IMG/VR virus record: IMGVR_UViG_3300017963_000313
Location: 1-55,807 of that record
DNA from: a virus
Length of the DNA stretch: 55,807 nt
Reading direction: 5' to 3' (one strand)
A program made the position numbers and the translations under genes. Shown piece after piece: positions 1 through 48,309 of the stretch (positions are counted from its first letter, which is position 1; every line of letters starts with the position of its first letter). Below the pieces are notes generated by a model, which saw only the letters and a list, made by a program, of their open reading frames with translations, was not told the origin of the DNA and ran no database searches.

Positions 1-222
1 AAATATAAGCTGTCTTTAGAAGAACTTATACAAGATAAAGATAGTCTGTGGGAAATTATACCCGAAAATCTTACAGATATGGAATACGACATTATTCAAC
101 TACGTATTAAAAAACACACCTTTAAAGAAATTGGGGAAATGATGGGTGGATTATCATACCAGTGGATTCATAAGGTTTATATTAGAGCACTTTCAAAAAT
201 AGTAGAGGCACATGCTGAATAG
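1..222 (+). CDS. C-terminal end of a sigma region-4-like / HTH protein (partial)
   Basis: An open frame runs from the window edge to a TAG at 220-222 (73 residues visible, start outside the window). The last 45 residues have the look of sigma-70 region 4: a short helix ending DMEYDIIQLRI, then FKEIGEMMGG, then a recognition-helix-like SYQWIHKVYIRALSKI, matching the usual pattern of hydrophobic residues with Ile-Gly at the turn and an Ala-Leu near the end. It would bind DNA or RNA polymerase. A second, more complete sigma-like protein lies at 49900-50529. The stop overlaps the start of the next gene by 11 bases, so the two are probably co-translated. Region-4-like assignment is by eye; a plain helix-turn-helix protein is the alternative. 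Confidence 0.6.
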   Translation, partial: KYKLSLEELIQDKDSLWEIIPENLTDMEYDIIQLRIKKHTFKEIGEMMGGLSYQWIHKVYIRALSKIVEAHAE

Positions 223-1912: not shown

Positions 1913-2051
1913 TCCAATATATCAAGAGATAGAAGACAAGCTTTTTAATATATGTTATTATCAATATATGGAAATAACTGCTATCTATTGCGATATGTCT
2001 GATACTTTTATGACCAGATTATTTAATACTCTACAAGGAACCAATGTCTAA
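1896..2051 (+). CDS. Small hypothetical protein (51 aa)
   Basis: A 51-residue frame (MNSIASPIYQEIEDKLF to LQGTNV) fills the gap between two glycosyltransferase genes, overlapping the first by 17 bases and the second by 8. It is rich in Tyr, Ile and Met with no recognisable domain. Its start is preceded by only a weak Shine-Dalgarno-like GAAGAAG. The tight overlap at both ends supports its being translated. It resembles in size, but not clearly in sequence, the small genes at the right end of the window. Confidence 0.45.
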   Translation: MNSIASPIYQEIEDKLFNICYYQYMEITAIYCDMSDTFMTRLFNTLQGTNV

Positions 2052-3168
2052 CGTATTATTTATAGGCCCCTACAGACAAAACGATGGGTGGGGGCAAGGT
2101 GCCAAAGGATACATTAAAGCACTTCAACATACTAGTGCTAACGTGGCAATTCGCCCTATATACATGGCAGGGACAGGCTTTACTAAAGAGCTACCCGATG
2201 ATATTATAGAGCTTGAGCAAAAACAGTTTGATGGACCCCCAAATATAATCATTCAGAATGTTTTGCCCACTCTACTCTCTTATCAGCCAGATGCATATAA
2301 CATAGGTCTATTTTACATAGAAACCCAAGGTATTAAACATACTGGGTGGATATATAGAATGAATCTCATGGATGAGATATGGGTAGCAAGCAATCATGAA
2401 AAACAAGTTCTAGAAGAAGAGGGTGTTACAGTTAAGATATCTGTAGTTCCCATGTGTATAGATATAGAACATCTACAAAGACAAGTTAAACCATTGTCTA
2501 TTCCTGGATGTGATACAGACTATACCTTCTATTTTATTGGAGAGCATACTAATCGCAAAAATATGCTTGGTCTTTTGTCTGCTTTCCACCAAGAATTTGA
2601 TAAGCATGAGCCGGTTAGACTGGTAATTAAATGTAATAAAATGGGTATGCATCCAGATGTTTTGCAGGAAAACGTTTCAACCTGCATTAAGCAACTAAAG
2701 CAACAAATGAGACTATATCCAAATCTACAAAATTATCATAACGAAATTCTAGTTACAGGCCATCTATCTGAAGATGAAATGTTGGGTTTACATCGCGCTT
2801 GTGACTGTCTAGTAGTACCATCTTGTGGAGAGTCATTAAATAGACCCGCTATGGAGGCTATGTGTGTTGGTAATGACCTTGTAGTTAATGGTCAAACTGG
2901 CATGAAAGATACCGTTGGCATTTGGGGGTTGAAAGCCCGTTCTAATAAAGTGCCAATCATTATACCAGATGCTCCTATGCCCACTATCTATACAGGTAGA
3001 GAAACATGGCAGGAAGTGGATATTCTTAATCTTCGGTGTTGTTTACGAGCGTCTTACGAGAGTAGAAATAAACTGAAACCTTCTGGTAGAGAAGAGTATA
3101 TGAAACGATTTTCTTACGAGCAAGTTGGAAATGTAATGGAAGACCTGATTATCAATGCAGCAAATTAG
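2044..3168 (+). CDS. GT-B glycosyltransferase (GT4-like)
   Basis: 374 residues, the usual size of a single-domain-pair GT4 enzyme. The first strand and loop VLFIGPYRQNDGWGQGAKGY match the glycine-rich N-terminal loop of GT-B enzymes. HTNRKNMLGLLSAF (about 175-190) matches the typical start of the C-terminal domain (the 'R-K' helix), and VPSCGESLNRPAMEAM (258-273) is the donor-binding E-x7-E region. An AAGGA lies 5 bases upstream of the ATG. The gene overlaps the next by 14 bases. It presumably adds a sugar to the same glycan as its neighbours. The acceptor could be a virion protein, host surface glycan or modified base; the sequence does not decide. Confidence 0.88.
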   Translation: MSNVLFIGPYRQNDGWGQGAKGYIKALQHTSANVAIRPIYMAGTGFTKELPDDIIELEQKQFDGPPNIIIQNVLPTLLSYQPDAYNIGLFYIETQGIKHTGWIYRMNLMDEIWVASNHEKQVLEEEGVTVKISVVPMCIDIEHLQRQVKPLSIPGCDTDYTFYFIGEHTNRKNMLGLLSAFHQEFDKHEPVRLVIKCNKMGMHPDVLQENVSTCIKQLKQQMRLYPNLQNYHNEILVTGHLSEDEMLGLHRACDCLVVPSCGESLNRPAMEAMCVGNDLVVNGQTGMKDTVGIWGLKARSNKVPIIIPDAPMPTIYTGRETWQEVDILNLRCCLRASYESRNKLKPSGREEYMKRFSYEQVGNVMEDLIINAAN

Positions 3169-4099
3169 AAACCTTACAAATAAAGCAATTAAGAAACCTG
3201 TGGACGAACCTCTAAACATACTCACATGTTTTTATGATGGTGTGTTTGATGTGGAATTGGCTAAAACCGGCCACAACTTTTATGGGGCCATTAATGATTC
3301 TTCTAATGAGTGGTGTCCTATAGACGACATTCCCTCTAATATGTTTTTTCTGCCGGGAACACAGCATTTTCAACACTATGATTTTATACTCTGTAATAAT
3401 CGTATAGAAAAGTGGGATTTGGCTACTAGACTACAAAACTATATGCAGTTGCCGATTGTCACTATAGACCATTATGGTAATCCACCCAATGTGCCCGATA
3501 TTAAAGTTCAGCAAATAAAAGACCGTACCAAAAGCGTAATGAGTTTTGCCACTAATAAGGCAGCCATGCACTGGGACGACCAAAGTATTTATATGAGACC
3601 GGGGATTGAATACCGCGAGCCGGTTGATAAAGATATTGATGTTCTTTTAGTTGGGCACTTTCCGCCAGAAGAACATAGCCTGCTGCATAGACTAAAGTTG
3701 AAGATGCCGGGATTGGTTATTGTTGGTCAAAATGAAGACCTATCTCCATGGCACACAGGAGAGGAATTGAGAAGTATATATGATAGAGCTAAGATTTTTA
3801 TTAATCTACCCAGGACTACAGGACTACCTACACTATTAATGCCAGCTATTGAAAGTGGTTGTGCGATTATATCCGTTAGAAATGAAGGCTCTAGACAATT
3901 ATTACAGGATGCCACACTATTCCTGGAACATGTTGAAGATATTCCTAACGTGGTTAATCGATTATTAAGAAATCCACACGAACTCAAAAAATACCAACAA
4001 GCCATATTAGAACACGAAGGCTTTCAAAACAAACAAAAATCTATAGAACAATGGTCCACCCTACTAACACAAGCACGCACAGAGATATTAGTAAAATGA
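3155..4099 (+). CDS. Glycosyltransferase, GT-B fold (divergent GT4-like)
   Basis: 314 residues. The C-terminal half has the GT-B donor region: IFINLPRTTGLPTLLMPAI and SGCAIISVRNEG (about 213-245), followed by the usual pattern of a loading loop and a final helix with NPHELKKYQQAILEHE. The N-terminal half is divergent and lacks a clear Gly-rich loop, though DVLLVGHFPPEEHSLLHRL (about 163-181) looks like the start of the second Rossmann domain. The first Glu of the E-x7-E signature is replaced (RTTGLPTLLMPAIE), so activity may differ. It ends in an ATGA overlap with the next gene. Confidence 0.78.
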   Translation: MQQIRNLTNKAIKKPVDEPLNILTCFYDGVFDVELAKTGHNFYGAINDSSNEWCPIDDIPSNMFFLPGTQHFQHYDFILCNNRIEKWDLATRLQNYMQLPIVTIDHYGNPPNVPDIKVQQIKDRTKSVMSFATNKAAMHWDDQSIYMRPGIEYREPVDKDIDVLLVGHFPPEEHSLLHRLKLKMPGLVIVGQNEDLSPWHTGEELRSIYDRAKIFINLPRTTGLPTLLMPAIESGCAIISVRNEGSRQLLQDATLFLEHVEDIPNVVNRLLRNPHELKKYQQAILEHEGFQNKQKSIEQWSTLLTQARTEILVK

Positions 4100-4527
4100 A
4101 AGACATAACTATTGTACTAGACCACCCCATTAATGAAAACGAGATACACGTATCTCAAATTGCAAGTATTACCAATGGTTCTTGCGACAATCTTAATCTA
4201 CGGGCTAGTATGGATTACACACCTCATAGAGAAGCACTGTTGTCTGCCGCAATCGGTAAAGTAAAATATGGTGGAACCATCACTATATCTGGACTAGATG
4301 CGTTTGAGGTATCTCGCCAAATTTATGTAGGCAAACTCAACGGACAACAAGCATCCGAAATCTTGTATAAGAATATCAACGGTCACACTCGGTCGTCTTG
4401 TGGGCATATTCTGGATACAATCGATAAACTGCAACAACACAACTTTACAATTCTAATTAAAGAACTACAAGACTACGCATATTCTATACAGGCAAGAAGA
4501 AATGAACCCCACTCACACATCGTGTAA
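4096..4527 (+). CDS. Hypothetical protein, possible methyltransferase-like fold fragment
   Basis: 143 residues from the ATG that overlaps the previous stop (ATGA); a start 45 bases upstream is possible but would lie deep in the previous gene. Visible features are an N-terminal strand (DITIVLDHP) and a central KVKYGGTITISGLDAFEVSRQI, resembling the 'GG-x-hydrophobic' strand and helix late in class I methyltransferases. The SAM-binding GxGxG loop is absent. It lies between glycosyltransferase genes in one operon, so a role in the same glycan pathway is likely. The fold suggestion is weak. Confidence 0.7.
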   Translation: MKDITIVLDHPINENEIHVSQIASITNGSCDNLNLRASMDYTPHREALLSAAIGKVKYGGTITISGLDAFEVSRQIYVGKLNGQQASEILYKNINGHTRSSCGHILDTIDKLQQHNFTILIKELQDYAYSIQARRNEPHSHIV

Positions 4528-5266
4528 AAACTGCATCTTTGCAGAATATGAAGAAAACACACAAGTAGGCTGTACTGCTGGTAGACTTGATGTTTTTAGA
4601 AATAGGGAAGAAGAGATTATAGAAGCCTATGATGAAGAGAAGGAATTCTATGTCATAGACAAGCGGATTTGTATGTACAAGCGACCAGAAAGCTGGAAGC
4701 ACGCAGACCTACCGCACGACGAACAAATCACCACAATTAAGGAAGAAATCAAGATACCCCTACATGTTATTATTATGGGGGAAGACTTTGACGATATCTG
4801 CAAGACTATAAATTCTTTGGTGGCACAAGAGGTGCAGCCTGCCCATATTACAGTACTGCGTCCTTATGGTTCTGTTTTACACGATACAAAAATTAGAACG
4901 ATAACATCATATCTAGACCAAAGTGGCATTCCGTGGAAACTTCAAAATATCCTCAATCCAGATGTGGAACCAGAAAAATATGAAGACCTAGTAGTAGATA
5001 TCGCCAAACCCCGGTATTATATGACACTGAATGCGGGGTGCGAAATACCCTCCGACACCATTAGAATACTGAATGAAAAAATCAACGAAGAACTATTCCG
5101 CTTTTATGTTCTAACCCCTAATAGTGAAGGCAATGGGTGGACAGTGCCATGGATGACATATCAGTTGTTTAATGGTAATAAGAAAGGTTCTCTGCTAGAC
5201 AAACTCAAGGATAATCAATGTCAATTACACAGTATCAATCAGATAGTGCCCAGCTTCCCAGAGTAG
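4502..5266 (+). CDS. GT-A-like protein with N-terminal four-cysteine zinc-binding motif
   Basis: 254 residues. The first 60 contain C8-x2-C11, C24 and C57 in a pattern suited to one zinc ion, within CKNCIFAEYEENTQVGC and a later DKRIC. From residue 86 a GT-A/GT2-like core is visible: PLHVIIMGEDFDDICKTINSL resembles the first strand and helix of GT2 enzymes, and YYMTLNAGCEIPSD takes the place of the DxD region without a clear DxD. It may therefore be a non-catalytic or divergent enzyme. It overlaps both neighbours (26 and 49 bases). Confidence 0.72.
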   Translation: MNPTHTSCKNCIFAEYEENTQVGCTAGRLDVFRNREEEIIEAYDEEKEFYVIDKRICMYKRPESWKHADLPHDEQITTIKEEIKIPLHVIIMGEDFDDICKTINSLVAQEVQPAHITVLRPYGSVLHDTKIRTITSYLDQSGIPWKLQNILNPDVEPEKYEDLVVDIAKPRYYMTLNAGCEIPSDTIRILNEKINEELFRFYVLTPNSEGNGWTVPWMTYQLFNGNKKGSLLDKLKDNQCQLHSINQIVPSFPE

Positions 5267-5781
5267 TAGTATGCTATCTGTCTGAGAACGCACCTCTACA
5301 GCAAACATATAGTAATATAGAATATACTAAATGTAAAGATGTGGACAATTTTAACGACGTACTAAATAGCGGGCTGGATAATGAGGTATATGTTTTTCTA
5401 TCCGCCCACGACGATTTTTGGAATGAGGAATGTGTAGCCAGAGTAATTGACAAGCGTAATAAATGTCCTAATGCTTGTATGCTGTATACGGATAATGTTA
5501 CTATAAAGAATAACATACAGTTTATTCAATATTTTCCCACATTTAGCTATGAGCACACACAAATACCAGACCTGATTATTAATACTCCACTATTCATTTG
5601 TAAGGATACGGGGGCTCGATTTAACACAGACTTACAATTTTTGTTTTTGTACGAGATGTTTCATCAAATAAGGCAAAAGGGTCTAGTGGTTCATATCCCC
5701 AGTATTTTGACAAAAACCACACAACCCCACGATATTTCATATGAACAGGACTTTGCATTACTAAATGAGCAGCCGGTCTAG
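5218..5781 (+). CDS. Hypothetical protein with GT2-like (GT-A) features
   Basis: 187 residues. An AAGGA sits 7 bases before the ATG. Hydrophobic strands alternate with helices, and VYVFLSAHDDFWNEECVARV (about 58-77) looks like the GT2 region in which a strand ends in Asp-Asp before a helix, followed by CMLYTDNV. No full GT2 signature is seen. It overlaps the preceding GT-A-like gene by 49 bases in another frame, and the two may act as partners or be a split pair. The glycosyltransferase role is inferred from fold hints and operon context. Confidence 0.65.
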   Translation: MSITQYQSDSAQLPRVVVCYLSENAPLQQTYSNIEYTKCKDVDNFNDVLNSGLDNEVYVFLSAHDDFWNEECVARVIDKRNKCPNACMLYTDNVTIKNNIQFIQYFPTFSYEHTQIPDLIINTPLFICKDTGARFNTDLQFLFLYEMFHQIRQKGLVVHIPSILTKTTQPHDISYEQDFALLNEQPV

Positions 5782-6487
5782 AAGAAATGTAGTTACTATT
5801 AAGGAAACTACGAAAAGTAGATGTAGTGTCGTTATACCTTCTGCTGGAGTGGGTAGTAGAATGCGTACCTATGGACCCACATCACTGATTAAAATCGAAG
5901 ACGAAATTACTGTCTTTGAAAGACAAAAAAGACTTATATCTCAAACAATACCCAATCATGAAATTGTTCTAGTCACCGGATTTGAATCTCAAAAGGTTAT
6001 CAATAATACCCCCAGAGATATTATCCACGTACAAAACGAAAGATATCAGGAAAGTAATGTTGTTAGAAGTATACAAATAGGAATCAATGCGGCAACCACC
6101 GACAATATCCTTGTTGTATATGGGGATTTGGTTTTTAATTCGGCTACCCTATCTCATAGTTTTCAAGAGTCTTCTATAGTAATAGACACACAGGCAGATA
6201 ATAAGAATACTGAGGTTGGGTGTATTGTCCATAACGAATACCTAGAACAGATGTGTTTTGACCTACCGCAAAAATGGTCGCAGGTGGTTTATCTTACAGG
6301 TAAGGAATTAAGCCTATTTTCAAAGTTTGCTAATAATCCTCAGAACATTATGGCTTTTGGATTTGAGGCCATTAATTGGATATTGGAGCATGGGGGTAGA
6401 TTTAAAGTTCTAAGCAACGATATGGATATTCAAACAGTAGACCTAGACACTTCTAAGGATATTAAACTAGCACAAAGTATACTATGA
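5765..6487 (+). CDS. Sugar nucleotidyltransferase-like protein (NTP_transferase family)
   Basis: 240 residues. Enzymes of this family join a sugar 1-phosphate and an NTP to make the donor for glycosyltransferases. The N-terminal strand and signature loop (VVIPSAGVGSRM, 22-33) and the metal-binding strand VVYGDLVF (117-124, Asp121) are both present. In the signature the usual Pro-Lys-x-Leu is Pro-Thr-Ser-Leu (39-42), so the lysine that normally contacts phosphate is missing, which could mean altered substrate use. It overlaps the previous gene by 17 bases and the next by ATGA. It is the only activated-sugar enzyme inside the left cluster. Confidence 0.82.
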   Translation: MSSRSRRNVVTIKETTKSRCSVVIPSAGVGSRMRTYGPTSLIKIEDEITVFERQKRLISQTIPNHEIVLVTGFESQKVINNTPRDIIHVQNERYQESNVVRSIQIGINAATTDNILVVYGDLVFNSATLSHSFQESSIVIDTQADNKNTEVGCIVHNEYLEQMCFDLPQKWSQVVYLTGKELSLFSKFANNPQNIMAFGFEAINWILEHGGRFKVLSNDMDIQTVDLDTSKDIKLAQSIL

Positions 6488-7356
6488 TAATTTTCACACC
6501 ATCCAACAGTCGCGTATTTGAGGGTTTAGGGGCGGCTTTTAAAGTATGTTATCCTACTGGTGCCATTATATGGAAACCAGAAGTCAAACCCATATTTGAT
6601 ATGTGTGCAGAATTAAGGCCGGAAATTCTTTTTCTAGATGCTGCATATATTACTACTGATATTATAGAAGCGATAGAACACTTCAAGTTAGATGTAGTAT
6701 TGCATGCTAATGGTTGTTCTCCAGAGTTATTGCCATATATTAAGCTACTTATCTATGATTCTGATATTCCAGAGCATATGAGACAACATCTTCCAACAGA
6801 TGTTTTAACATACGAACATAAGCCTGCGGCAAACTATGTAAAATTTAGGAACCCCGTTTATAATGATAAGCTTATAGCTGACATTGGATACCTCAGTACG
6901 AGCGGACAACAAGCCTCCACAGATATTCTAGAGCGGCTATCATATGTTATCAGCGAGACACCTTATAGTTTAAAGATTATGGGTAGTCCGATGCCCTATG
7001 TTAATTATATCGGTATTACCACACCTAAACAACATCTAGACCTAGCAGCTTCTACACAAATTAGTTTAGACTGTGGCGGTCATTTACTAATGGAGTATGC
7101 TGTCAACAGGATATTTACTATCACTAATGTGGTACAAGATGTCTTTCCATATGTTGAAAAAACAGAAGACTTATTGCCCGCATTAAATCAATATATAGAA
7201 AATCCTAAACTCAGAGCTAAGATAGCTAAACAAGCATATAAACAAACCATTGATACTGACACGTGTTTTCATAGACTGGCAGATATAGCACAACTGCTTG
7301 ATAAGAAGGATTGGTATCATAAAAGTATAGACGTTTTTAAGACAATGAGGACATAA
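6484..7356 (+). CDS. Glycosyltransferase-like protein (GT-B, CgeB-like)
   Basis: 290 residues. The layout matches short CgeB/GT family 1-like proteins: an N-terminal Rossmann half, then KLIADIGYLSTSG opening the second domain, and DLAASTQISLDCGGHLLMEYAVNRIF (about 195-220) in the donor-binding position, ending with a helix pair NPKLRAKIAKQAYK typical of GT-B C-termini. Start by ATGA overlap with the nucleotidyltransferase; end by TAATG overlap with the next gene. Catalytic residues cannot be assigned confidently. Confidence 0.72.
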   Translation: MIIFTPSNSRVFEGLGAAFKVCYPTGAIIWKPEVKPIFDMCAELRPEILFLDAAYITTDIIEAIEHFKLDVVLHANGCSPELLPYIKLLIYDSDIPEHMRQHLPTDVLTYEHKPAANYVKFRNPVYNDKLIADIGYLSTSGQQASTDILERLSYVISETPYSLKIMGSPMPYVNYIGITTPKQHLDLAASTQISLDCGGHLLMEYAVNRIFTITNVVQDVFPYVEKTEDLLPALNQYIENPKLRAKIAKQAYKQTIDTDTCFHRLADIAQLLDKKDWYHKSIDVFKTMRT

Positions 7357-7808: not shown

Positions 7809-8604
7809 AGCCAAAAGGTACGGTTCTCTCACAGAGAATGATAAAAGGGAATTACTAGAACACACATACGTAGAACAAGGGTGGAGTTGGGCAGCTATAG
7901 CAGACGTTTGCAGCACATACCCCAACAAAGTACGTAGAGAAGCTCTATCTCTAGGTATTAAATCTCGCACACGTAGTGAATCTCAAAAACTGGCTTTAGC
8001 AAGTGGTAGACATGCCCACCCAACAAAAGGGAAACAACATAGCCAGGAATCTAAAGATAAAATTAGTAATAGTATGGCGGAATCCTGGGAGAATATGAGT
8101 CCCAAGGAATTAAGACGCCGCCAAGAGATGGCCCGCAAACAGTGGGATGCAATGTCAGATAAAGAGAAGGCTGAACTACAGAGGAAAGCTAGTGAAGCCA
8201 TTAGAGAAACTATTCATAAAGGTTCTAAACTAGAAAATCATCTACGCGAAGGTTTAGCGGCTAACGGCTATCAGGTTAATTTCCATGTAGACTATATGGT
8301 TAAAAACCAGAATCTACAAATTGACTTGCATATACCCAATATGAACGTAGCTATTGAGGTAGATGGTCCAAGTCATTTTACTCCCATCTGGGGAGAAGAC
8401 GCATTACGACTAAGCCAACAGGCAGATGCAGAAAAAGATGGTTTGTTGCTAGGTATGGGTTTGTGTGTAATTCGAGTACAGCAAACTAAAGAGATATCGG
8501 AAAAGTTTAAAAGAGATACCCTCTCTAGACTATTGGAAGTATTACAAAAAATTGAAAAGAAGTTTCCCGCTAGGGAAAAAAGACACATTGTATTAGGAGA
8601 CTAA
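7780..8604 (+). CDS. Putative free-standing homing endonuclease (NUMOD3 motif plus Vsr/DUF559-like nuclease)
   Basis: 274 residues from the ATG with GGAGG 9 bases upstream; a longer frame from 7702 lacks such support. Parts: an N-terminal helix-turn-helix (WSWAAIADVCSTYPNKVRRE, about 35-54), a NUMOD3-like basic motif TKGKQHSQESKDKISNSM (82-99) typical of homing endonucleases, a charged helical linker, and a nuclease core with E152, QIDLHIP (D182, H184), AIEVDGPSH (E193, D195, H199) and a later lysine and VIRV strand. This is the PD-(D/E)xK/very-short-patch-repair fold pattern. It lies between the sugar cluster and recombination genes and overlaps the preceding gene. It probably cuts DNA to spread itself. 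Confidence 0.78.
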   Translation: MKLSKPWLAKAKRYGSLTENDKRELLEHTYVEQGWSWAAIADVCSTYPNKVRREALSLGIKSRTRSESQKLALASGRHAHPTKGKQHSQESKDKISNSMAESWENMSPKELRRRQEMARKQWDAMSDKEKAELQRKASEAIRETIHKGSKLENHLREGLAANGYQVNFHVDYMVKNQNLQIDLHIPNMNVAIEVDGPSHFTPIWGEDALRLSQQADAEKDGLLLGMGLCVIRVQQTKEISEKFKRDTLSRLLEVLQKIEKKFPAREKRHIVLGD

Positions 8605-29565: not shown

Positions 29566-30254
29566 TACATACTTACCGTTCTACTGAGTTCAGCATTGAT
29601 TATATTTTCCATACCGTCAATTGATTGTAGTACTGCTCTGTTTGCAAAATTATTATCATCTGTACCACGAAATTCCACAGGAACACTCCAACTCCCTTTC
29701 TGTACCATGATTTGACCACCCGCACGACCGCGACCAGGAGCAATATGATAATCTGAAATGATAACTTGGTCTCCACGAAGTAACAACCATTCTAGCCAGG
29801 GGAGGTTTTCTTTCTTCTCCGTCGTGAAGTTGGCAGTCCTACGTCTTAAAACATCTACCCATCCAGCCTTAAATATACCTATCTGTATTCCACCCTGAAT
29901 GCTATCACCAACTATTTTAATAGGTTTCAGAGTAACAAAAAGGCTTTGCACCCACACCTCAATGATGTCATCCATTCTTGCGGGACCATCTACCAAACCA
30001 AAGTGTTCACGTAAACTACCTGGGCCAGTTGCAACTAGAGCGGCATATTCAGGCTGTTCTTTAATGACCCTGCGTAACCACTCTTGTAATTGTTTTTTAA
30101 TTCTAGGAACAGCAGCACGAAAACCCTTATTTAGTTGTTGAGATATTGCATTAGCCAGTTTACGTCCAAGCACATCCCTCTCTGTACCGGCAACCTTAAT
30201 GCCAACATCTATACTAGCAAAATTTCTAAAGTTTGGCAATCCTCGACTGACCAT
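29565..30254 (-). CDS. Head-tail joining / tail completion protein (HK97 gp10-like)
   Basis: 229 residues from the ATG that overlaps the preceding stop (TAATG); a GTG 18 bases upstream is the alternative. Helical N-terminus (LANAISQQLNKGFRAAVPRIKKQLQEWL) followed by strands including GGIQIGIFKAGW and GDQVIISDYHIAPGRGRAGGQIMVQ. This is the layout of tail completion proteins of the HK97 gp10 type, which have a basic helical N-terminal part and a small beta domain. Its position between connector genes and the tail terminator candidate agrees. Confidence 0.62.
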   Translation of the reverse strand: MVSRGLPNFRNFASIDVGIKVAGTERDVLGRKLANAISQQLNKGFRAAVPRIKKQLQEWLRRVIKEQPEYAALVATGPGSLREHFGLVDGPARMDDIIEVWVQSLFVTLKPIKIVGDSIQGGIQIGIFKAGWVDVLRRRTANFTTEKKENLPWLEWLLLRGDQVIISDYHIAPGRGRAGGQIMVQKGSWSVPVEFRGTDDNNFANRAVLQSIDGMENIINAELSRTVSM

Positions 30255-30790
30255 TATGACATACGCTCCCACATTGTAATTACGTACTGCTCACCTATGC
30301 CACATAGATTGGGCTCGCCATCTCTTTGGAATCTGTGTTTTTCATAGTTAGACACATCGGTATTTAACAACACTGTCTTAGCCCGTTTAATCTTGGCGTA
30401 GGTAGTAATGTCTGAAATAGTTTGGGCAAAACCCCCAGGCGTCTGAGTGGTTCTATCTTGCCCACCAACATTAATCCAACTATCATAATCCCAAATAACC
30501 ATCATGTGAATTTCTTCGGTTTGTTCATCTCCAATACGGCCCGCCCCATTACACATAGGGCAAGTTTGACCATTTGGGAAAGGTATGGGACCACCACTTT
30601 TATACCTATTACCAGACTTGCGACCAATAGGATTATACGTACAATTAGTACACGCATTCCATTTGGTGACACCATAATCTAACAAACAAGGAGCACTACA
30701 CGCCCCCTCTTCTATGAGGGCATCAATCATGTTCTTATATATATTCTTAAATTCTTCGCTGATTATACCAGAAAAAGGATTAGTTGGCAT
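30254..30790 (-). CDS. Cysteine-rich structural protein (zinc-binding), head-tail region
   Basis: 178 residues from the ATG at 30790 with AGGTG upstream; a GTG at 30799 is possible. C-x3-C at ACSAPCL, then CTNC and CPMCNGAG provide a zinc-binding pattern reminiscent of the DnaJ-type C-x2-C-x-G-x-G repeat. The C-terminal half (EEIHMMVIWDYDSWINVGG, KIKRAKTVLLNTDVSNYEKHRFQRDGEPNLCG) is beta-rich and could be a connector or head completion domain. It overlaps the sulfotransferase gene by 11 bases, so the two are coupled. Confidence 0.62.
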   Translation of the reverse strand: MPTNPFSGIISEEFKNIYKNMIDALIEEGACSAPCLLDYGVTKWNACTNCTYNPIGRKSGNRYKSGGPIPFPNGQTCPMCNGAGRIGDEQTEEIHMMVIWDYDSWINVGGQDRTTQTPGGFAQTISDITTYAKIKRAKTVLLNTDVSNYEKHRFQRDGEPNLCGIGEQYVITMWERMS

Positions 30791-31622
30791 CTTCTTCACC
30801 TATCAAAACTGCATTACTAGCTGCTAAAGTATTAATATCTGCATATTTAGCATTGAGTTCTTGGATAATTGGTTCTGTTAATAGTTGTTTGGTTTGCTGT
30901 GGGGTAATGGGAGACTTGACCTTATGTAGGTTCATACCATAGTATGTGTCGTCCTCATGAGTAATTTGTCTGACGTTCTGTGTATCGTATTTAAACTTTG
31001 GTAGTTCTAACCCTGTATGAATACTGTCTAATACTGTGTCTGGATGATTAATGAATAATTCATAAGGAACTATCATAAGCCTATCTTCTTTTCTCTGTAT
31101 GGCATCTCTGACAATATTAATCGGATGACCAACCATACCAGCATCACTAAACCAAGCTTTAATTCTACCTTCTATTGTCACCTGGGAGGCTATCTCTGTT
31201 TCTCCACCATATGCCCAATCAACTCCTTTATTCCTATACAAGTGTTCAAAAGATGACCCAATATCGGCCACATTTCTTACCATCATGATAACAGTAATCT
31301 TCTCTTCCAAACACTGTTCTACTTCCTCAATATAGCGGGGCCAGCTACGATTCTTCTCAAATATTACCCTACCTCCCTCAAATTCGTCTTTAAAGTATCC
31401 ACGTAAAAATCCCCCCATGGCGTTAACTATGCGGGGTTTTACTGTCTCTAATCCCTCGGCCTGAAATTCGGAAAACCCTTTCCAGGCATTCTGAGTGTTA
31501 ATAAATAGTTCAATTAGTCCGCTAGTCGGAGTTACGTGGTGTGCTGGGTTTTGCCCTAACACATTCATTAATAGTGTCGAGCCACTCCGTGGTAAGCCCG
31601 CCACGAACACCATTCTTCCCAT
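30780..31622 (-). CDS. Sulfotransferase (PAPS-dependent family)
   Basis: 280 residues, AAGGATAGGAC upstream. The family moves sulfate from PAPS to hydroxyls or amines of sugars, proteins or lipids. The 5'-phosphosulfate loop is plain: FVAGLPRSGSTLLMNVLG (6-23), and the 3'-phosphate motif appears as MMVRNVADIGSSFEHLYR (about 113-130, with Arg and Ser at the expected places). The C-terminal part includes VPYELFINHPDTVL, matching the 'Y-E-x-L' strand seen in this family. It has no signal peptide, so it acts in the host cytoplasm. It sits within the virion structural operon, between a fibre module and head-tail genes, which suggests the target is a virion protein or glycan on it. Confidence 0.88.
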   Translation of the reverse strand: MGRMVFVAGLPRSGSTLLMNVLGQNPAHHVTPTSGLIELFINTQNAWKGFSEFQAEGLETVKPRIVNAMGGFLRGYFKDEFEGGRVIFEKNRSWPRYIEEVEQCLEEKITVIMMVRNVADIGSSFEHLYRNKGVDWAYGGETEIASQVTIEGRIKAWFSDAGMVGHPINIVRDAIQRKEDRLMIVPYELFINHPDTVLDSIHTGLELPKFKYDTQNVRQITHEDDTYYGMNLHKVKSPITPQQTKQLLTEPIIQELNAKYADINTLAASNAVLIGEEDAN

Positions 31623-31642: not shown

Positions 31643-31963
31643 TTATAGTATGCCTTGAGCCTTTCCAACGATTTCAAGGGCGTCAATCACACCATCAACG
31701 ACATCATTAATATCACTATTAGCCGCTGATAATTGTTCAAGACTATTAATGCTTACTAGTTTTCTGTCTTCAGATACATCACTCAGTTCCCACGTATCGT
31801 TATCGCTATTGTGCCTACCTTTAATAAAGACTGCATCAGCACATGTGTCTCTGTCTGGATGTGCAGAAATAATTAATTCTTTTAAATACCACTTATCATA
31901 GGTCACTTCAGGCTGGGCGGGTTTAGTACTTGTACTTTCCGCATCAATTTTTTTAAAACCCAT
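31643..31963 (-). CDS. Small structural or fibre-associated protein (106 aa)
   Basis: 106 residues, AAAAGGATAAATA upstream. A Ser/Thr/Pro-rich N-terminus is followed by KWYLKELIISAHPDRDTCADAVF and a C-terminal helix pair (SLEQLSAANSDINDVVDGV). The gene follows the 732-residue fibre gene and may be a fibre assembly partner or a minor capsid component. No family recognised. Confidence 0.58.
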   Translation of the reverse strand: MGFKKIDAESTSTKPAQPEVTYDKWYLKELIISAHPDRDTCADAVFIKGRHNSDNDTWELSDVSEDRKLVSINSLEQLSAANSDINDVVDGVIDALEIVGKAQGIL

Positions 31964-31974
31964 TATTTATCCTT

Positions 31975-34173
31975 TTATGTATATTTGACTTCGGTTGCTA
32001 AAACATGTGCCACCCAATTAACTTGTACTCCAGATGCTACATTATTACTTACCTGTATGGCTAGCGAATTATTACTGTTATCGCCCGATACTTGTGCTAA
32101 GTACGAAGCGGCATCTGTAGCAACAGAGGTTAATGCTTGTGGACTGCCGCCAACTAACGATACTGTACTACCAGAACGTTTAATAACACCTTCTCCTGTA
32201 AACCCAAAGGCAACATCAGCATCCCGTTCCTGACCGACTAACAGGATACTAAATACCCAACTTGTGTCTTGAGGAATAGTAAGTAATTTAGAGGAACCGT
32301 CTAAAAATAGCTCTGTCCAACTAGTGTCTGAGTGTGTCACATCATTTCTAGCAACAAACCGCGAAGATTGTGCTTCACCTCTACCCCCGGTAAAACTTCC
32401 AGCAGCAAAAGCCTGTTGTGCAAATTTATCTGTTTGAGCACGAGTACCGCCTAAAATAGTTCCATATTTTTCAGAATCCGCAACAGTATTTCTAGAACCA
32501 CCAACAATAGTGGCATAATCAGAAGCACGAGAAGTGCTATATACACGATGTTGGAAACCACCAATAACTGTAGTTCTATATGCATCATATAATTTTTGGT
32601 TTTTGCCAAATACAATTTGTGATGCGGCACCAACTCTACTATTGGCATCAACTCCAACCATAATACAGTCTGTACTATTGACCGTTCCATTATATGAACC
32701 AATAATAGTAGTAGACGTTGAGCTTGCAGTATTTCCACGGCCACCCAAGATAACCGCTCTTTTACCAGTAGCCGTATTGTTGTATCCACCAGCAATAAAT
32801 GTGTAGTCGCCATATGCTTGATTGCCAGAACCACCAGCAATGACAGAATATTTACCACTAGCCACCTGATTATTAGCACTTCTTTGCATTTGTAAGTCAA
32901 CAGCACCTTCACCTCTGGCGTTACCACCATCGTCCAACATAAATGCACCATCACCATTAGGCTTCAATACCATATCTTGATTCGTAACATTAGAGGTAAT
33001 GATATAGCTTCCCATGTTCAAATTAGCACCCAGTGTTGGGGTAGGGTCTTCAATAAGGCCTGTAATACCACCGCCCCCACCACTAGCCAAGTCTACAATA
33101 CCCTGAACACTAATACGTCGTAGGGTTCCAGGGCTATCTGTCATACCCGTACCAGTAATAGCAATGAGAAAATCGCCAGTAGTAGCTGCTACTAGAGTTT
33201 GCCCCATGATATCAACATCTAAAGTACTACTAGTAGTAAGGTCTCCACCACCAGCTAATCCAGTACCCGACAAAATAAATACGCTAGAATGGTCTGTATG
33301 TTCATCAGACAAATAGTTTTGTAAGATATTATGGTCAATGCCCGTAGCATCTGCCGATAGGGTTATATTACCATCAATAGTACCCCCACCTTTTACTCCG
33401 CTGGCTCCGATAACAGACACAGCCGTATGGTCTATATGTTCGTTAGAAACAAAATTAGTAGTTTGGTCATGGTCTACATCTGAGTGATTTAAAGAAATGG
33501 TGCGAGATACATCAATATAACCACCTCCAGATAAAATACCGTCCCCGGTTACAAAAACAGTACTATGGTCTATATGCTCATTAGCCACATAATTCTGTAG
33601 GCTATCGTGGTCAATGCCCGTAGCATCTGCCGACAATGTAATATTACCATCAATAGTGCCTCCACCCTGGACACCACTAGCGCCTGTAACAGATACCGTA
33701 GTGTGGTCTATATGCTCATTGGACACATAGTTGGAAAGAGCATCATGGTCTATTTCAGAAGGTACATATACAAAGGTTAAGTCATTGGCATTCTCTATAA
33801 TGTTAATACCTGTCTCTGGAATAAAAGAGCGGAATTCTAAATCCACACCTGTCTTCTGTTTGAAAACACCAGAACCCGTACCCTGATTAGATGCCGTATT
33901 AGCTTGACCAGCACTTCCACCAAGGGCATCAATAGCCTGTTTAACACGCAGTCCCGTAAATAGTTTGGGGGCAATGCCCGTACCGGCTTCGGCTTCGGCC
34001 TGTGTGATAATATCTGTACCTTGACCGGGACCATCCCCAGTATTAGAACTAAGGAGGGAATCAACTATATCAGTTAGTTGGTCGTTAAGAACAACCGCTG
34101 TAATATCGCCAGCATTATTTGTTGCAATATTAGCATCAATATCTGTATTTAGGTCTGCTCTACTCTTTGCCAT
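31975..34173 (-). CDS. Fibre protein with His-rich triple-beta repeats and beta-roll repeats
   Basis: 732 residues; start overlaps the previous stop (TAATG). Modules: an N-terminal helical adaptor (1-110, including LNDQLTDIVDSLL), four 46-residue repeats (142-325) each opening DHD-x4-NYV-x-NEHIDH, a Gly-rich linker, a beta-roll (430-580) with units of the type xxIAGGxxNxAxGxY resembling trimeric adhesin head repeats, and a C-terminal domain. The His-x-x-His pairs resemble the metal-binding His of trimeric phage fibres. It should be a trimeric fibre. Because it lies between capsid and connector genes, it might be attached to the head or neck instead of the tail tip. Confidence 0.83.
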   Translation of the reverse strand: MAKSRADLNTDIDANIATNNAGDITAVVLNDQLTDIVDSLLSSNTGDGPGQGTDIITQAEAEAGTGIAPKLFTGLRVKQAIDALGGSAGQANTASNQGTGSGVFKQKTGVDLEFRSFIPETGINIIENANDLTFVYVPSEIDHDALSNYVSNEHIDHTTVSVTGASGVQGGGTIDGNITLSADATGIDHDSLQNYVANEHIDHSTVFVTGDGILSGGGYIDVSRTISLNHSDVDHDQTTNFVSNEHIDHTAVSVIGASGVKGGGTIDGNITLSADATGIDHNILQNYLSDEHTDHSSVFILSGTGLAGGGDLTTSSTLDVDIMGQTLVAATTGDFLIAITGTGMTDSPGTLRRISVQGIVDLASGGGGGITGLIEDPTPTLGANLNMGSYIITSNVTNQDMVLKPNGDGAFMLDDGGNARGEGAVDLQMQRSANNQVASGKYSVIAGGSGNQAYGDYTFIAGGYNNTATGKRAVILGGRGNTASSTSTTIIGSYNGTVNSTDCIMVGVDANSRVGAASQIVFGKNQKLYDAYRTTVIGGFQHRVYSTSRASDYATIVGGSRNTVADSEKYGTILGGTRAQTDKFAQQAFAAGSFTGGRGEAQSSRFVARNDVTHSDTSWTELFLDGSSKLLTIPQDTSWVFSILLVGQERDADVAFGFTGEGVIKRSGSTVSLVGGSPQALTSVATDAASYLAQVSGDNSNNSLAIQVSNNVASGVQVNWVAHVLATEVKYT
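33199..33750 (-). repeat. Four tandem 138-bp fibre repeats
   Basis: Residues 142-325 of the fibre protein; DHD/DHN openings fall at 142, 188, 234 and 280, an exact 46-residue period. Copies 1 and 3 are nearly identical in protein and DNA, as are parts separated by 276 bases, which would allow copy-number change by recombination. Confidence 0.85.
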
Positions 34174-35120
34174 TATAAATCACCATATGTTAGTGCGGTT
34201 CCACTGTTGTATAGGAATTCTTTTTCGTCATCTGTTATTAGTCTGGACCAGTATGCCGCTTCATCTACATAACCATCAACAGCAAATGTAACATCAATAT
34301 TGCCATTGGAACCCATTGTAAAATCACCCGTTCCTTCAAACACTCCACCAGAATGTGCAGCAGTAGTATATCCACCTATTGGGTCGCCAGCCTTTGTTAC
34401 TGAAATTTTTACCAAGTCGTTTACAGAATCATATGCTCCTACTACAAAGTACCATGTTTCTACTAGGGGCGAGGTTGGGTGTTGCGCTCTACCTAAACCT
34501 GCAAAAGTACCATCGCTAGTTACGTTAAATTCTAATTTTTGTCCTACTGTATTCATTTGCAATAACCACTCTCTTTGGTCTCCAGCAGGCAACCAAATAC
34601 CAGCTATACTTTGAAAACTAGTAAGACTACCTGTTTTAAACTTAACCCAACACGCAAAAGTAAAGTCCGAATTACCGGGGGATAGGTCGTTAGCTGAAAG
34701 AGAGTGTATAAGTGTGTCATTGCTACCACGAGTAAATTCTACGGCATAATTAACACCATCGGCCCCAGTATCTCTGCCCGGAGCAGTAGCCACAATCGTC
34801 ATATCTAAACCGTCATGACTATCTACTCTATTTGAAGTACCGTCTTCTTCTAGTCCCCAATAGGCAACCATTCCCGTTTTAATAGAGTCTGCGCTAGCCA
34901 ACATGCCCCCTTTATAATAGCGAGGGTCGTCAAATCTATCTTGTAATGCTGTTGGAGTACCAGTTAGCCATACGTCACACACATTATTTGAAGCAATATC
35001 TAGTGGACTATAACGTGCAAAATCAGACCTATTATGACCAAAGCCATGCATAGTAATGGCTCCGTGGGTCGCGTTTGTGTTTTGGGTACCACTGGTATCA
35101 AAAATATCTAAAACTGTCAT
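34173..35120 (-). CDS. LamG-like lectin with N-terminal adaptor domain (paralog A)
   Basis: 315 residues; TAATG overlap with the gene before it. An N-terminal domain (1-75: LDIFDTSGTQN, ATHGAITMHGFGHNRSDFAR, DRFDDPRYYKGG) is shared with the next two upstream genes. A LamG domain follows (about 85-305): MVAYWGLEEDGTSNRVDSHDG, SDFTFACWVKFKTG, TWYFVVGAYDS and the closing AAYWSRLITDDEKEFLYNSG. LamG folds bind sugars or act as adhesion modules. Likely a head or neck fibre tip or decoration. Confidence 0.82.
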   Translation of the reverse strand: MTVLDIFDTSGTQNTNATHGAITMHGFGHNRSDFARYSPLDIASNNVCDVWLTGTPTALQDRFDDPRYYKGGMLASADSIKTGMVAYWGLEEDGTSNRVDSHDGLDMTIVATAPGRDTGADGVNYAVEFTRGSNDTLIHSLSANDLSPGNSDFTFACWVKFKTGSLTSFQSIAGIWLPAGDQREWLLQMNTVGQKLEFNVTSDGTFAGLGRAQHPTSPLVETWYFVVGAYDSVNDLVKISVTKAGDPIGGYTTAAHSGGVFEGTGDFTMGSNGNIDVTFAVDGYVDEAAYWSRLITDDEKEFLYNSGTALTYGDL

Positions 35121-36034
35121 TACAAGTCACTATATGTTAGTGGTATTCCTCCGTTGTATAGTGCGGTTTTTTCTGCTTCGTTTAATAGTCTAGACCAAAA
35201 AGCCGCTTCGTCTATGTATGCATCTGCTTGGTCTCCTAGGTTTGAGTCTGCCCCAATAACAAAAGAGGCCAATCCCTCATAAACCCCATCGGCAAAGCTC
35301 TCTGTAGTATAGTCGCCACCGTCTACAGAAATCTTCATTAAATCATTATTGGAGTCATAAGAACCTATCACTAAATACCAAGTGTCTGCCGATAAAGAAG
35401 TACCATGAGATACGACACCATTTCCAGAGTCAGTACCATCTGGACTAATTTGCATTTTGATGTCACCGTCTCCTGCTCCATCATAATATATCTTCCACTC
35501 TCTGTTTGCCGGTGATACCCATATACCAGAAATTACTTGTGTTTCACTAATGTTGGCAGCTTTAAGATATATCCAACAGGCAAACGTAAAATCACTATCT
35601 CCGGGAGATACTCCATTAGTTGGAGAAAAGCTAGGAAGATTATTAGCACCACGAACAAGATTAATAGCATAATTCACACCATCTTTACTCAATACTCTGG
35701 CAGCATCAACAATAAGGCTTAAATCATTACTTCCATGAGAATCAAATCTTGTAGAGGACGCTTCTTCAAAAGCCCAATATGAAAGTAATCCAGTCGTTAA
35801 ATCAACAACACCATTTTCACTACCCTTATAATATCTAGGATTATCAAATCTATCTTCGATATTAGTTGGATTACCAGTTGTCCAAATTGTACCCACATCA
35901 GATGTAGGTGTAGTATTTGGAACCAGCCTTGCAAAGTCTGACCTGTTATGGCCAAATCCATGCATGGTAATGCCGCCATGTGTGGCCGTAGTATTTTGAG
36001 TGCCACTAGTATCAAAAATATCTAATGAAACCAT
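35120..36034 (-). CDS. LamG-like lectin with N-terminal adaptor domain (paralog B)
   Basis: 304 residues, TAATG overlap on both sides. Same two-domain plan as paralog A: LDIFDTSGTQNTTATHG, GITMHGFGHNRSDFAR and DRFDNPRYYKG, then LLSYWAFEEASSTRFDSHG, SDFTFACWIYLKAA, TWYLVIGSYDS and EAAFWSRLLNEAEKTALYNGG. The adaptor domains are near-identical while the LamG domains have diverged, as expected after tandem duplication followed by diversification of the binding part. Confidence 0.82.
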   Translation of the reverse strand: MVSLDIFDTSGTQNTTATHGGITMHGFGHNRSDFARLVPNTTPTSDVGTIWTTGNPTNIEDRFDNPRYYKGSENGVVDLTTGLLSYWAFEEASSTRFDSHGSNDLSLIVDAARVLSKDGVNYAINLVRGANNLPSFSPTNGVSPGDSDFTFACWIYLKAANISETQVISGIWVSPANREWKIYYDGAGDGDIKMQISPDGTDSGNGVVSHGTSLSADTWYLVIGSYDSNNDLMKISVDGGDYTTESFADGVYEGLASFVIGADSNLGDQADAYIDEAAFWSRLLNEAEKTALYNGGIPLTYSDL

Positions 36035-36285: not shown

Positions 36286-36873
36286 TTAATGCCTGTGTGT
36301 ATGGTGTCCAAATCCATGGCCATGGCTAAAACTATCTGGATAAATAGAAGTATTACCAAAGTTTGTACTATGACCACGACCTGTAGGCAGACTTTGTGGG
36401 TCAAAATTATTACCAATAAACGGACTCAAAATTGCCTTGACAACACGTGTATCTCCAAACTGATGTTGGGTTTTTAGTGTTTCATATGCGGCACAGGGGC
36501 CAGATTCTAACAGTTCTTTAAAACCGTCTATATGTTTAAGTGTTCGTAATACAGCAGCACCACATCTAGCTTCTACGCCCGCCACCAATGCTTTAGTTCT
36601 AAAAGTACTCCAATCTGCTGTGCAGGCCGCTTTTAGTACTGTCAAATTAGTGTATGCAGGGTCTAATGTACTACTTACCGTTGGGTCTGGAGAAATATTA
36701 GGAACATCGATATTAATAGTATATGTGGTTGTTAAGTTAACTTCCTGCTGTACAAAGTGGGCGGAAACAACCAGTATTTGTTGTAGTCTTTTATCTGTAT
36801 ATGAATAATTATCCGAGTCTGTATCATTAATTAGAACACGGAGCATTGTTACCATTGTTTTATTCCACGCCAT
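36286..36873 (-). CDS. Head-tail connector-like protein with His-rich tail
   Basis: 195 residues, AAGG upstream. The first 150 residues are helical with a single beta insertion, similar in size and plan to the adaptor proteins that sit under the portal: MLRVLINDTDSDNYSYTDKRL QQIL at the start is characteristic of the HK97 gp6-like connector group, with LTVLKAACTADWSTFRTKAL later. The C-terminus is rich in His and Gly (HGHGFGHHTHRH), which may bind metal. It marks the start of the connector region. Confidence 0.65.
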   Translation of the reverse strand: MAWNKTMVTMLRVLINDTDSDNYSYTDKRLQQILVVSAHFVQQEVNLTTTYTINIDVPNISPDPTVSSTLDPAYTNLTVLKAACTADWSTFRTKALVAGVEARCGAAVLRTLKHIDGFKELLESGPCAAYETLKTQHQFGDTRVVKAILSPFIGNNFDPQSLPTGRGHSTNFGNTSIYPDSFSHGHGFGHHTHRH

Positions 36874-37549: not shown

Positions 37550-38566
37550 TTACATGCTCATCAAGATAACTCGACGATTGTCAAGAGCGGCAAAGCCATG
37601 CTCGGCCCAACCGTAGACACCGGCTCGTCTCTGACGATGAAGGGTATCATCCTCGAAGATTTGCACCTGCTCACGGATTGGCATCACAAAGCTGTCATTC
37701 TTGCTCAAGTCAAGACCAACCAAGATTTCTACGTCACCAGTCGGTACACTAGCAGCCAACTCGTTCTCATAGAACAATTGATATTCTTGACCTTCACCAA
37801 GCTCATCAATATCGTGCAAGTTCACGCCAAAGATGTTGCTAATAGCATTATCTTCGCGGGACACGAAAATCTGACGACGAGTGATTTCGTCAACTTGGTC
37901 AACATTCCAGTTACGAATATCTTCCATGCCTTCTGGGCTCAGATAGATATCAGTAAGTTTACCGCGATTATTGGAAGTGGAGTTACCACCACCATTACGT
38001 CGCATAACGGTCTTACCAAGGCTAACAAGGCGCTTAGTAAACTGACCTTGGGAAGCGTCACTATCAAGGACGACAATGTTACGGTCAACGCCTGCGGCGA
38101 GCAAGGTGTGCCAACCATCGTCATTAGTCTTCTTGACAAACTGACCTTCCATAACTTCAAGGGCACGACTAACTACATCCCAACGCGCATCACGAGCATA
38201 CTTAAGGTTCCAGTCAATAGCTGCACCGATATCGTATGTTGGGACTTGCACATAGTCACCTTCCACATGTCGCTGCGGAATGTAACCATGATTAGGAATA
38301 GTGAATGCCACAAAGTCTTTTTCAGTTCCCGGCGCAAGGAAGTCTAGCGGGAATTCCGAAGTACTATTCGAGTCCAACTGAATGGGCTCAAAAATACCAT
38401 CGAGAATATCACCATTAAGAATACCTTTACGCAACGGCAACTCAAGAGCCTTCGCAATTTCATGCGTGTTGTTCAAAGACTCTTCTTTATTCATAGAACC
38501 AGAAGCACGCAACACATCGTTAAGCATCTTTTGTTCTTCTGGTGTGAAGATTTCTCTATCAGCCAT
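37550..38566 (-). CDS. Major capsid protein (HK97-like fold)
   Basis: 338 residues with CAGGAGATACG upstream. Follows protease/scaffold and decoration genes and has its own strong terminator. Features consistent with HK97-fold capsids: an N-terminal helix that may be removed by the protease (residues 1-60), a long helix WNLKYARDARWDVVSRALEVME (about 119-140) like the spine helix, LTDIYLSPEGMEDIRNWNVD (about 205-224) as in the A-domain, and a C-terminal strand set ending RAGVYGWAEHGFAALDNRRV. It would form the icosahedral shell. Confidence 0.88.
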   Translation of the reverse strand: MADREIFTPEEQKMLNDVLRASGSMNKEESLNNTHEIAKALELPLRKGILNGDILDGIFEPIQLDSNSTSEFPLDFLAPGTEKDFVAFTIPNHGYIPQRHVEGDYVQVPTYDIGAAIDWNLKYARDARWDVVSRALEVMEGQFVKKTNDDGWHTLLAAGVDRNIVVLDSDASQGQFTKRLVSLGKTVMRRNGGGNSTSNNRGKLTDIYLSPEGMEDIRNWNVDQVDEITRRQIFVSREDNAISNIFGVNLHDIDELGEGQEYQLFYENELAASVPTGDVEILVGLDLSKNDSFVMPIREQVQIFEDDTLHRQRRAGVYGWAEHGFAALDNRRVILMSM

Positions 38567-46958: not shown

Positions 46959-47270
46959 TTACTTATTTTCGTTTTGTATAATAATTCTATCGAAAACCTC
47001 TTGATAGTAAACTTCCTGTCCCGATATCATTTCGTGATGTTTTCTACAGAGGGTAATACCATTACGTCTTTGGAATCTAACCAGCGGTTGTTCCGCCCAA
47101 CCTCTTACATGGTGGACCTGTAATCTCTTACGCTCTTTACAGTCGGGCCACTGACAGCAGTACCCATCTCTCTTTTTTACTTCTTTTCTAAACTTGATGT
47201 ATTGAGGGTCATCAAAGTTGCGGGATTGCGGTCTTACGGGGAATTTCCGCCTGTGTCTGCGATAAGTCAT
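46959..47270 (-). CDS. HNH endonuclease next to terminase
   Basis: 103 residues. RDGYCCQWPDCKERKRLQVHHVRGW (about 33-57) and GITLCRKHHEM give the C-x-x-x-x-C, H-H, Asn/C-x-x-H order of a zinc-stabilised HNH nuclease. HNH proteins beside terminase genes often take part in genome packaging. Its first 59 bases lie inside the end of the GDP-mannose dehydratase gene in another frame, with conserved-looking HNH N-terminal sequence (PQSRNFDDPQYIKFRKEV) starting there. Confidence 0.88.
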   Translation of the reverse strand: MTYRRHRRKFPVRPQSRNFDDPQYIKFRKEVKKRDGYCCQWPDCKERKRLQVHHVRGWAEQPLVRFQRRNGITLCRKHHEMISGQEVYYQEVFDRIIIQNENK

Positions 47271-48297
47271 GGGAAACCATTTCTTTCACTAAATCTTCAA
47301 AACTATAACTAGGTTTCCATCCCAATACTTTTTTAGCCTTGGATGGATTACCACATAAATAGTCCACTTCTGAAGGTCTGAAGAACTTGGGGTCAATCAC
47401 TACATAGTTAGACCAATCTTCGATGCCTATCTCTTCAAAAGCAATATCCAAAAACTCTCTCACACTGTGTGTTTCCCCAGACGCTACCACATAGTCATCT
47501 GGCGTATCCTGTTGTAGTGTTAGATACATTGACTCAACCATATCGGAGGCATGGGACCAATCTCGATATGCATCTAAATTTCCTAGTCTAAGCTTAGGAA
47601 TTTTACCCAATCTGTCATAAATATAGTCGTCGTCAAAATGTGTGACATGACCATAGTTTTGTGCTCGAAAGTTTGCAATCCACCGAGTAATCTTGCGGGT
47701 GACAAACTTATCTCCACGACGGGGGCTCTCGTGATTAAATATCATATTAGAGCTAGCATGAATTCCATAAGCCTCTCTATAGTTTTGTACTAAATAGTGG
47801 GCAGCCAGCTTAGCCACAGCATATGGGCTCCGTGGATGAAAAGCTGTATTCTCATCCTGATATTTATTTCCATCTCCATCAACACTATAATTACTACCAA
47901 ACATCTCGCTAGTTGAAGCTTGATAGAACCTTGTGTGTGGAGATTCTCTACGAATAGCTTCGAGTATATTTAAAACACCAATATAATTAACGTCTGTTGT
48001 ATGGAGTGGTTCATTAAAGCTAGTTTGAACATGAGACTGAGCCGCGAGATTGTAACATTTATCAGGCATAAATTCTTTAATGAGTCCACTAATCGAAACA
48101 TAATCTGTCACATCTCCTTCTCTAAAAACAAAATTAGGATTAGATATAATATGAGATAGTCTATCTGTATTATTAGTACTACTTCTACGGGAAATACCTA
48201 TAACGGTATATCCTTTGTCTAATAGTAACTCTGACAAATACGAACCATCTTGTCCTGTCACACCTGTAATCAGGGCGCTTTTTTTATCCTCTGACAT
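47212..48297 (-). CDS. gmd: GDP-mannose 4,6-dehydratase
   Basis: 361 residues from the second in-frame ATG (AAGGA nine bases upstream; the first ATG at 48303 is only four from it). Converts GDP-D-mannose to GDP-4-keto-6-deoxymannose, precursor of fucose, rhamnose or perosamine donors; cytoplasmic, NADP-dependent. Evidence: GVTGQDGSYL (12-21), NLAAQSHVQTSF, QASTSEMFG (126-134, Thr129, Ser130, Glu131) and RSPYAVAKLAA (Tyr159, Lys163). SSNMIFNHESPRRG and KFVTRKITRW are diagnostic for the family. Length is normal. No partner epimerase/reductase is seen here, so the host may complete the pathway. Confidence 0.93.
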   Translation of the reverse strand: MSEDKKSALITGVTGQDGSYLSELLLDKGYTVIGISRRSSTNNTDRLSHIISNPNFVFREGDVTDYVSISGLIKEFMPDKCYNLAAQSHVQTSFNEPLHTTDVNYIGVLNILEAIRRESPHTRFYQASTSEMFGSNYSVDGDGNKYQDENTAFHPRSPYAVAKLAAHYLVQNYREAYGIHASSNMIFNHESPRRGDKFVTRKITRWIANFRAQNYGHVTHFDDDYIYDRLGKIPKLRLGNLDAYRDWSHASDMVESMYLTLQQDTPDDYVVASGETHSVREFLDIAFEEIGIEDWSNYVVIDPKFFRPSEVDYLCGNPSKAKKVLGWKPSYSFEDLVKEMVSHDLSQTQAEIPRKTAIPQL

Positions 48298-48309
48298 ATA
48301 CATTTGTCC

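Follow-up and report, generated by a model that had tools for sequence, protein, structure and literature searches.

Which role a sulfotransferase could play among the structural genes of a phage was examined for a 55.8-kb IMG/VR virus record, analysed over its whole length and referred to here as the window. The features needed for the argument are the following (coordinates, strand, description).

212..7356, plus: glycosyltransferase (GT) cluster with four GT genes and a MobA-like nucleotidyltransferase (Pfam)
30254..30799, minus: conserved Cys-rich gene (181 aa) that overlaps the sulfotransferase end and forms a fixed boundary of the cassette
30780-31622, minus: sulfotransferase (ST) ORF, 280 aa, complete, with ATG start
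31643..31963, minus: 106-aa protein encoded between fibre and ST
31975..34173, minus: 732-aa fibre containing beta-roll repeats of the YadA-head type, its C-terminal tip domain conserved
31978..32490, minus: C-terminal fibre domain, compared in alignment A9
34173..35120, minus: LamG/ConA-like lectin-domain protein (Laminin_G_3, PF13385, 1.2e-9)
35120..36034, minus: LamG/ConA-like lectin-domain protein (Laminin_G_3, PF13385, 1.8e-18)
36286..36873, minus: connector-like conserved gene (alignment A6, 262 relatives), the other fixed landmark of the cassette
37550..38566, minus: major capsid protein (MCP; PHROG 2522, major head protein, 0.0014)
47212..48303, minus: GDP-mannose 4,6-dehydratase, a nucleotide-sugar enzyme (PF16363, 7e-120)

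As judged by its family, predicted fold and intact cofactor site, the ORF at 30780-31622 encodes a PAPS-type sulfotransferase, in agreement with an earlier note on this DNA that had described a P-loop sulfotransferase at this position. Its start is directly preceded by an AAGGA/AGGA Shine-Dalgarno-like stretch. The product matched Sulfotransfer_3 (PF13469) at 8e-14 and 52.9 bits, above the curated cutoff of 27, as well as PHROG 27463 at 1.6e-28, a family labelled 'unknown function'. The motifs FVAGLPRSGSTLL (residues 6-18) and VRNVADIGSSFEH (residues 115-127) match the 5'- and 3'-phosphosulfate-binding elements, respectively, and both are conserved in an alignment of 65 sequences. The 5'-phosphosulfate loop reads PRSGST (residues 11-16); R92, W94, R116, S124 and H233 are invariant in the alignment, with R116 and S124 representing the 3'-phosphate Arg and Ser, and R12 and K90 are among the further conserved residues. 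An AlphaFold2 model, generated with the 65 aligned sequences as input, reached a mean pLDDT of 93. Foldseek searches with this model returned sulfotransferases as top matches, the best being the tyrosylprotein sulfotransferases TPST2/TPST1 (E 1.7e-7, TM about 0.6), and a profile search against the PDB yielded TPST1 at 8.5e-15. Since the cofactor-site residues are conserved, the enzyme is probably active. It belongs to a known enzyme family, for which a new role is plausible. The gene is also common in phages, because an alignment-based pattern scan of IMG/VR returned at least 599 stretches, at least 587 of them confirmed relatives. This number and the ten phage records matched by the ST in tblastn searches contradict the earlier view that phage sulfotransferases are uncommon.

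The fibre and lectin cassette reported by the earlier note is indeed found upstream of the ST gene, where the two LamG proteins and the 732-aa beta-roll fibre are encoded, all co-directionally. The 106-aa gene next to the ST has phmmer relatives in L080 (5.9e-6), L046 (0.0028) and L101 (0.02), the weak one in L101 occupying the matching spot (fibre, small gene, ST). At the other end, the 30254-30799 gene, for which 86 relatives were found, overlaps the ST end by 20 nt from its GTG start or by 11 nt from an ATG at 30790; the latter fits the relatives better (alignment A5) and is the probable start. Because the two genes overlap, the translational coupling between them that was claimed previously is plausible. 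The designation of this neighbour as a head-tail gene is consistent with its conserved position between the MCP/connector-like and tail genes, but Pfam and PHROG searches gave no convincing family match. Overall, the ST gene appears to lie in a late, structural operon. The probable tape-measure protein of the window (18817-24597, 1926 aa) contains a single tyrosine.

Two further regions of the window could bear on sugars. The GT cluster at 212..7356 is a possible source of a virion glycan; the last gene of the larger plus-strand cluster (212-8604) shows a NUMOD3-like motif, albeit a weak one that scores below the cutoff, and possibly encodes a homing endonuclease. The GDP-mannose 4,6-dehydratase gene shares a strand block with the nuclease and terminase genes, just upstream of which it lies, and is present in 27 of the best 80 MCP loci (of 165 MCP relatives). 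In the large terminase subunit (43157-46522, 1121 aa), residues about 205-605 form an intein-like insert that has a LAGLIDADG-like motif and a terminal HN|S and was absent from all 14 relatives inspected.

For the window MCP, 165 relatives were confirmed, of which the best 80 share 71-79% identity with it, on contigs of up to 231 kb, and its sole match among phage records was a weak one to Bacillus phage G; the protein marks an uncultured large-phage clade. The interval from the MCP to the 30254 gene holds 0.64-11.3 kb of variable genes in these relatives, with the connector-like gene (36286) fixed inside it. ST genes were found in this cassette in the window, L029, L118 and L177/L178 and were absent from all 58 other unique relatives with a complete interval, which rules out the ST as a fixed component of the clade. 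Within the clade of the window, the ST is therefore rare, optional content of a hypervariable fibre cassette. Elsewhere in the clade, the cassette was seen to hold, among others, a GT25-ST fusion in L025, glycosyltransferases of the DXD and GT92 types in L064, a methyltransferase in L226 and, in L218, a weak match to Sulfotransfer_2.

The surroundings of STs were then compared using the best-scoring 80 loci per scan, which are ranked by similarity to the query and are not a random sample; their genes were called with a simple ORF caller and the loci deduplicated by hand. Fibre-like genes, a status assigned mostly by a composition rule plus a few domains, occupied position -1 in 41% and position -2 in 46% of the best ST loci, compared with a distant-gene background of 9.6%. 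After deduplication, a fibre-like gene was present at -1 to -3 in 46 of the 63 best loci and at +1 to +3 in 11. With phylogenetic independence handled roughly, by clustering STs at 50% identity, such genes were found upstream in 12/20 and downstream in 3/20 clusters (p=0.008; background triples 12%), and at 40% identity in 7/13 and 2/13 clusters, respectively (p=0.10). The -1 neighbours carry Kelch, RCC1, Mtd_N and LamG domains or match tail-fibre PHROGs, and the -2 neighbours YadA_head, beta-roll (LbR), collagen and RCC1 domains. The fibre-ST arrangement, with the fibre upstream, thus appears to be recurrent and directional in unrelated phages. By the standard of the earlier note, homologs confined to sites outside structural operons would have spoken against virion sulfation; in the relatives, STs recur beside fibre genes, and the idea is not refuted on this count.

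The fibre of the window itself takes part in this association. Homologs of its residues 401-732 were detected in 15/71 ST loci and in 2/232 ST-less loci, the latter mostly from the window's own clade (Fisher 9e-9); one of these two, L091, does carry an ST that was missed by gene calling. In L029, a homolog of the window fibre directly precedes an ST. In a reverse scan from the fibre side, using an alignment (A10) of close variants of 31978..32490 from other loci, an ST followed at +1/+2 in 16/27 loci where the tip domain was close (by inspection, 9 of about 16 lineages) and in 0/52 loci where it was distant; as ST loci had supplied six of the seven queries, this result is biased towards the fibre-ST link. 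Fibres of the window type without ST are often directly followed by a 113-aa gene, and the ST, where present, usually sits between fibre and 113-aa gene. Thirteen of the 71 ST loci contained neither a fibre nor a GT9-like neighbour. In two ST-less relatives (L324 6486-7712, L346 6510-7769), the post-fibre gene has trypsin-like His and Ser motifs (AAHY and GDSGNP in L324), perhaps indicating a virion protease domain. The two LamG proteins were rejected as conserved ST partners: their homologs do not recur beside STs, and the previous suggestion that they are sulfation targets was not borne out.

Some STs are also linked to glycosyltransferases. A 290-aa gene is found in L102-L115, where in most loci it shares 4 nt with the start of the ST, and again in L341, where it lies between fibre and ST. 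The structure predicted for its product (pLDDT 73) best matched two GT9 heptosyltransferases, WaaF and WaaC, together with TibC, a heptosyltransferase that acts on an adhesin. A second partner of ~350 aa, weakly GT9-like (Pfam 0.021), is encoded 5' of the ST in many loci; L154 and L158 encode the two as one fused protein, and elsewhere the partner is a separate gene beside STs. Genes for donor supply were found near some STs, comprising HldE-kinase- and HldD-like genes in L002 and, close to the ST of L106, an APS kinase (3.4e-51), which bears indirectly on PAPS-dependent activity. Only the L106 type was clear among the APS kinase candidates: the ~280-aa kinase genes near the STs of L135-L149 were not confirmed as such, one of them giving only a weak nucleotidyltransferase match. 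Within the window, a GT9 partner, APS kinase and heptose genes were not found; the ORF at 55105-55506 (PHROG 'phosphoheptose isomerase') was dismissed as a heptose gene, as it has a HAD phosphatase-type motif (IVDVDGVIA) and no Pfam match. In L330 (5286-7194), a polysaccharide pyruvyl transferase gene and a second, different Sulfotransfer_3 gene lie downstream of the fibre. The glycosyltransferase links would favour a fibre-borne sugar as the acceptor.

A related arrangement is seen in bacteria of several genera, with Pseudomonas over-represented among the loci. Bacterial Sulfotransfer_3-type genes, whose products are 26-36% identical to phage STs, are likewise co-directional with a repeat-rich secreted protein, but the order is reversed, with the ST before the large gene. 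A giant repeat-rich ORF directly followed the ST in 32/64 bacterial loci (median gap 44 nt), as compared with 3/251 control genes of the same loci. Many of the giant ORFs start with a LEPRxLFD motif or a DUF4347-like pattern, as read from their sequences. In L403 and L404, which contain two of the closest cellular homologs, the ST is preceded by repeat proteins that end in PEP-CTERM-like tails. In L409, L417 and L433, the ST and giant secreted protein come after two or three tandem genes whose products, as read from the sequence, resemble phage tail-collar/microcystin-dependent proteins. In both phage and bacterial loci, the enzyme gene thus adjoins a repetitive surface-protein gene, as in adhesin-modifying systems, and the window ST would belong to a wider group tied genetically to fibrous attachment proteins, namely phage fibres and bacterial giant secreted repeat proteins.

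Because ST relatives lie beside phage fibres and bacterial giant adhesin-like proteins, it is probably these attachment proteins, or their sugars, that are sulfated. We propose, with a probability of roughly 0.55, that the window encodes a PAPS-dependent, cytoplasmic ST that is made late in infection and adds sulfate to the attachment proteins of the phage itself, either ahead of assembly or while it proceeds. As acceptor, a sugar already present on a fibre rich in repeats, for example the 31975-34173 protein, would be the most likely, with Ser/Thr/Tyr side chains of the fibre itself a less likely choice; the sulfate may alter the charge, adhesion or stability of the fibre. The late timing of expression, the activity, the acceptor and what the sulfate does are inferred. 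The idea of virion fibre or glycan sulfation put forward in the earlier note thus gains strong circumstantial support from the linkage to fibres, the linkage to bacterial giant proteins and the fusion or overlap with glycosyltransferases; its LamG targets and the purpose it suggested, mimicry of the host or avoidance of binding, did not gain such support.

A special case of fibre sulfation would be O-sulfation directly on fibre tyrosines, with the ST as the phage counterpart of tyrosylprotein sulfotransferase. It is suggested by TPST1/2 being the closest solved structures by both fold and profile, with the Arg of the PAPS site and the Lys of the NKDP motif aligning with the ST. However, identity is only about 14-17%, and the TPST2 catalytic Glu, Glu99 (E99), aligns with T33 of the ST in sequence and profile alignments. 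Compared with other fibres, ST-linked fibres showed no Tyr enrichment (p=0.74) and were depleted in Asp/Glu (p=7e-12), and the 732-aa window fibre lacks any Tyr in acidic surroundings. With no counterpart of the TPST catalytic Glu in these alignments and no surplus of Tyr in ST-linked fibres, tyrosine is not favoured as the acceptor, and this variant is regarded as improbable. A somewhat better case, albeit still an unlikely one, can be made for host surface glycans (LPS, O-antigen, capsule) being sulfated by the ST together with phage glycosyltransferases, for instance to block superinfection or hide the infected cell, with fibre proximity reflecting the co-transfer of host-range modules. The resemblance of the GT9 partners to LPS heptosyltransferases, the heptose-synthesis genes in L002, the GT genes and GDP-mannose dehydratase of the window and the hypervariability of fibre cassettes would all agree with it, whereas the location of the ST in a structural operon, one gene from the fibre, the specific direction with the fibre upstream and the association of bacterial homologs with giant secreted repeat proteins argue against it.

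Phage STs are generally catalogued under auxiliary metabolic genes, and phage nucleotide sulfation systems have been mentioned (PMC10829341, PMC8290583), in keeping with sulfation of nucleotides, DNA bases or a small metabolite as part of auxiliary metabolism or DNA hypermodification. Yet the neighbours of the window ST are structural, with no DNA-modification genes beside it, and the pattern across ST relatives is centred on fibres, making this role very unlikely. Finally, the ST could be a passenger (moron) that has no function connected with the adjacent genes and is simply tolerated at a variable site among structural genes; it is optional in the clade, and some fibres directly precede the 113-aa gene with no ST in between. 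We give this explanation hardly any weight in view of the conserved cofactor-site residues and the recurrence of the fibre-ST arrangement in unrelated phages, with an analogous one in many bacterial genera.

Fibre sulfation as proposed here can be set against known systems. The Sulfotransfer_3 proteins of cyanophages and marine phages (S-SRM01, S-SKS1, S-SCSM1; OM43 phages, PMC10580990) are 24-30% identical to the window ST. An RCC1-repeat protein precedes the ST of S-SRM01, which also has a glycosyltransferase and a nucleotide-sugar epimerase encoded nearby, whereas the ST neighbours in S-SKS1 and S-SCSM1 are not annotated as fibres. The function of phage STs has been stated to be unclear (PMC10580990), and they have been filed as auxiliary metabolic genes (PMC8290583, PMC12285232, PMC13079714). 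The BAHT autotransporter heptosyltransferases (TibC, AAH) similarly are modifying enzymes encoded beside the repetitive adhesin that they act on, the autotransporter gene often following that of the enzyme (PMC4358343). A TibC-like fold is predicted for the GT partner of some phage STs; TibC, however, transfers heptose rather than sulfate, and the window ST is not a glycosyltransferase and has no GT9 partner in the window. Our literature search yielded nothing connecting phage STs with tail fibres, APS kinase, sulfation, DUF4347 or adhesins, and bacterial loci combining an ST with a giant LEPRxLFD or DUF4347-like protein were not found as a subject of study. Tentatively, these loci may point to a widespread, unrecognised system in which a dedicated ST, often with a TibC-like glycosyltransferase and sometimes its own PAPS/ADP-heptose supply, puts sulfated sugars on tail fibres and, in a homologous arrangement, on bacterial giant secreted proteins.

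Phage STs are plentiful in metagenomes, where they are classed as auxiliary metabolic genes of sulfur cycling; if they decorate fibres, that classification would be wrong for many of them. The bacterial loci with an ST and a giant secreted protein in Shewanella, Rheinheimera and Pseudomonas offer a culturable test ground. If the proposed role is correct, sulfation would join glycosylation as a means of altering viral receptor binding.
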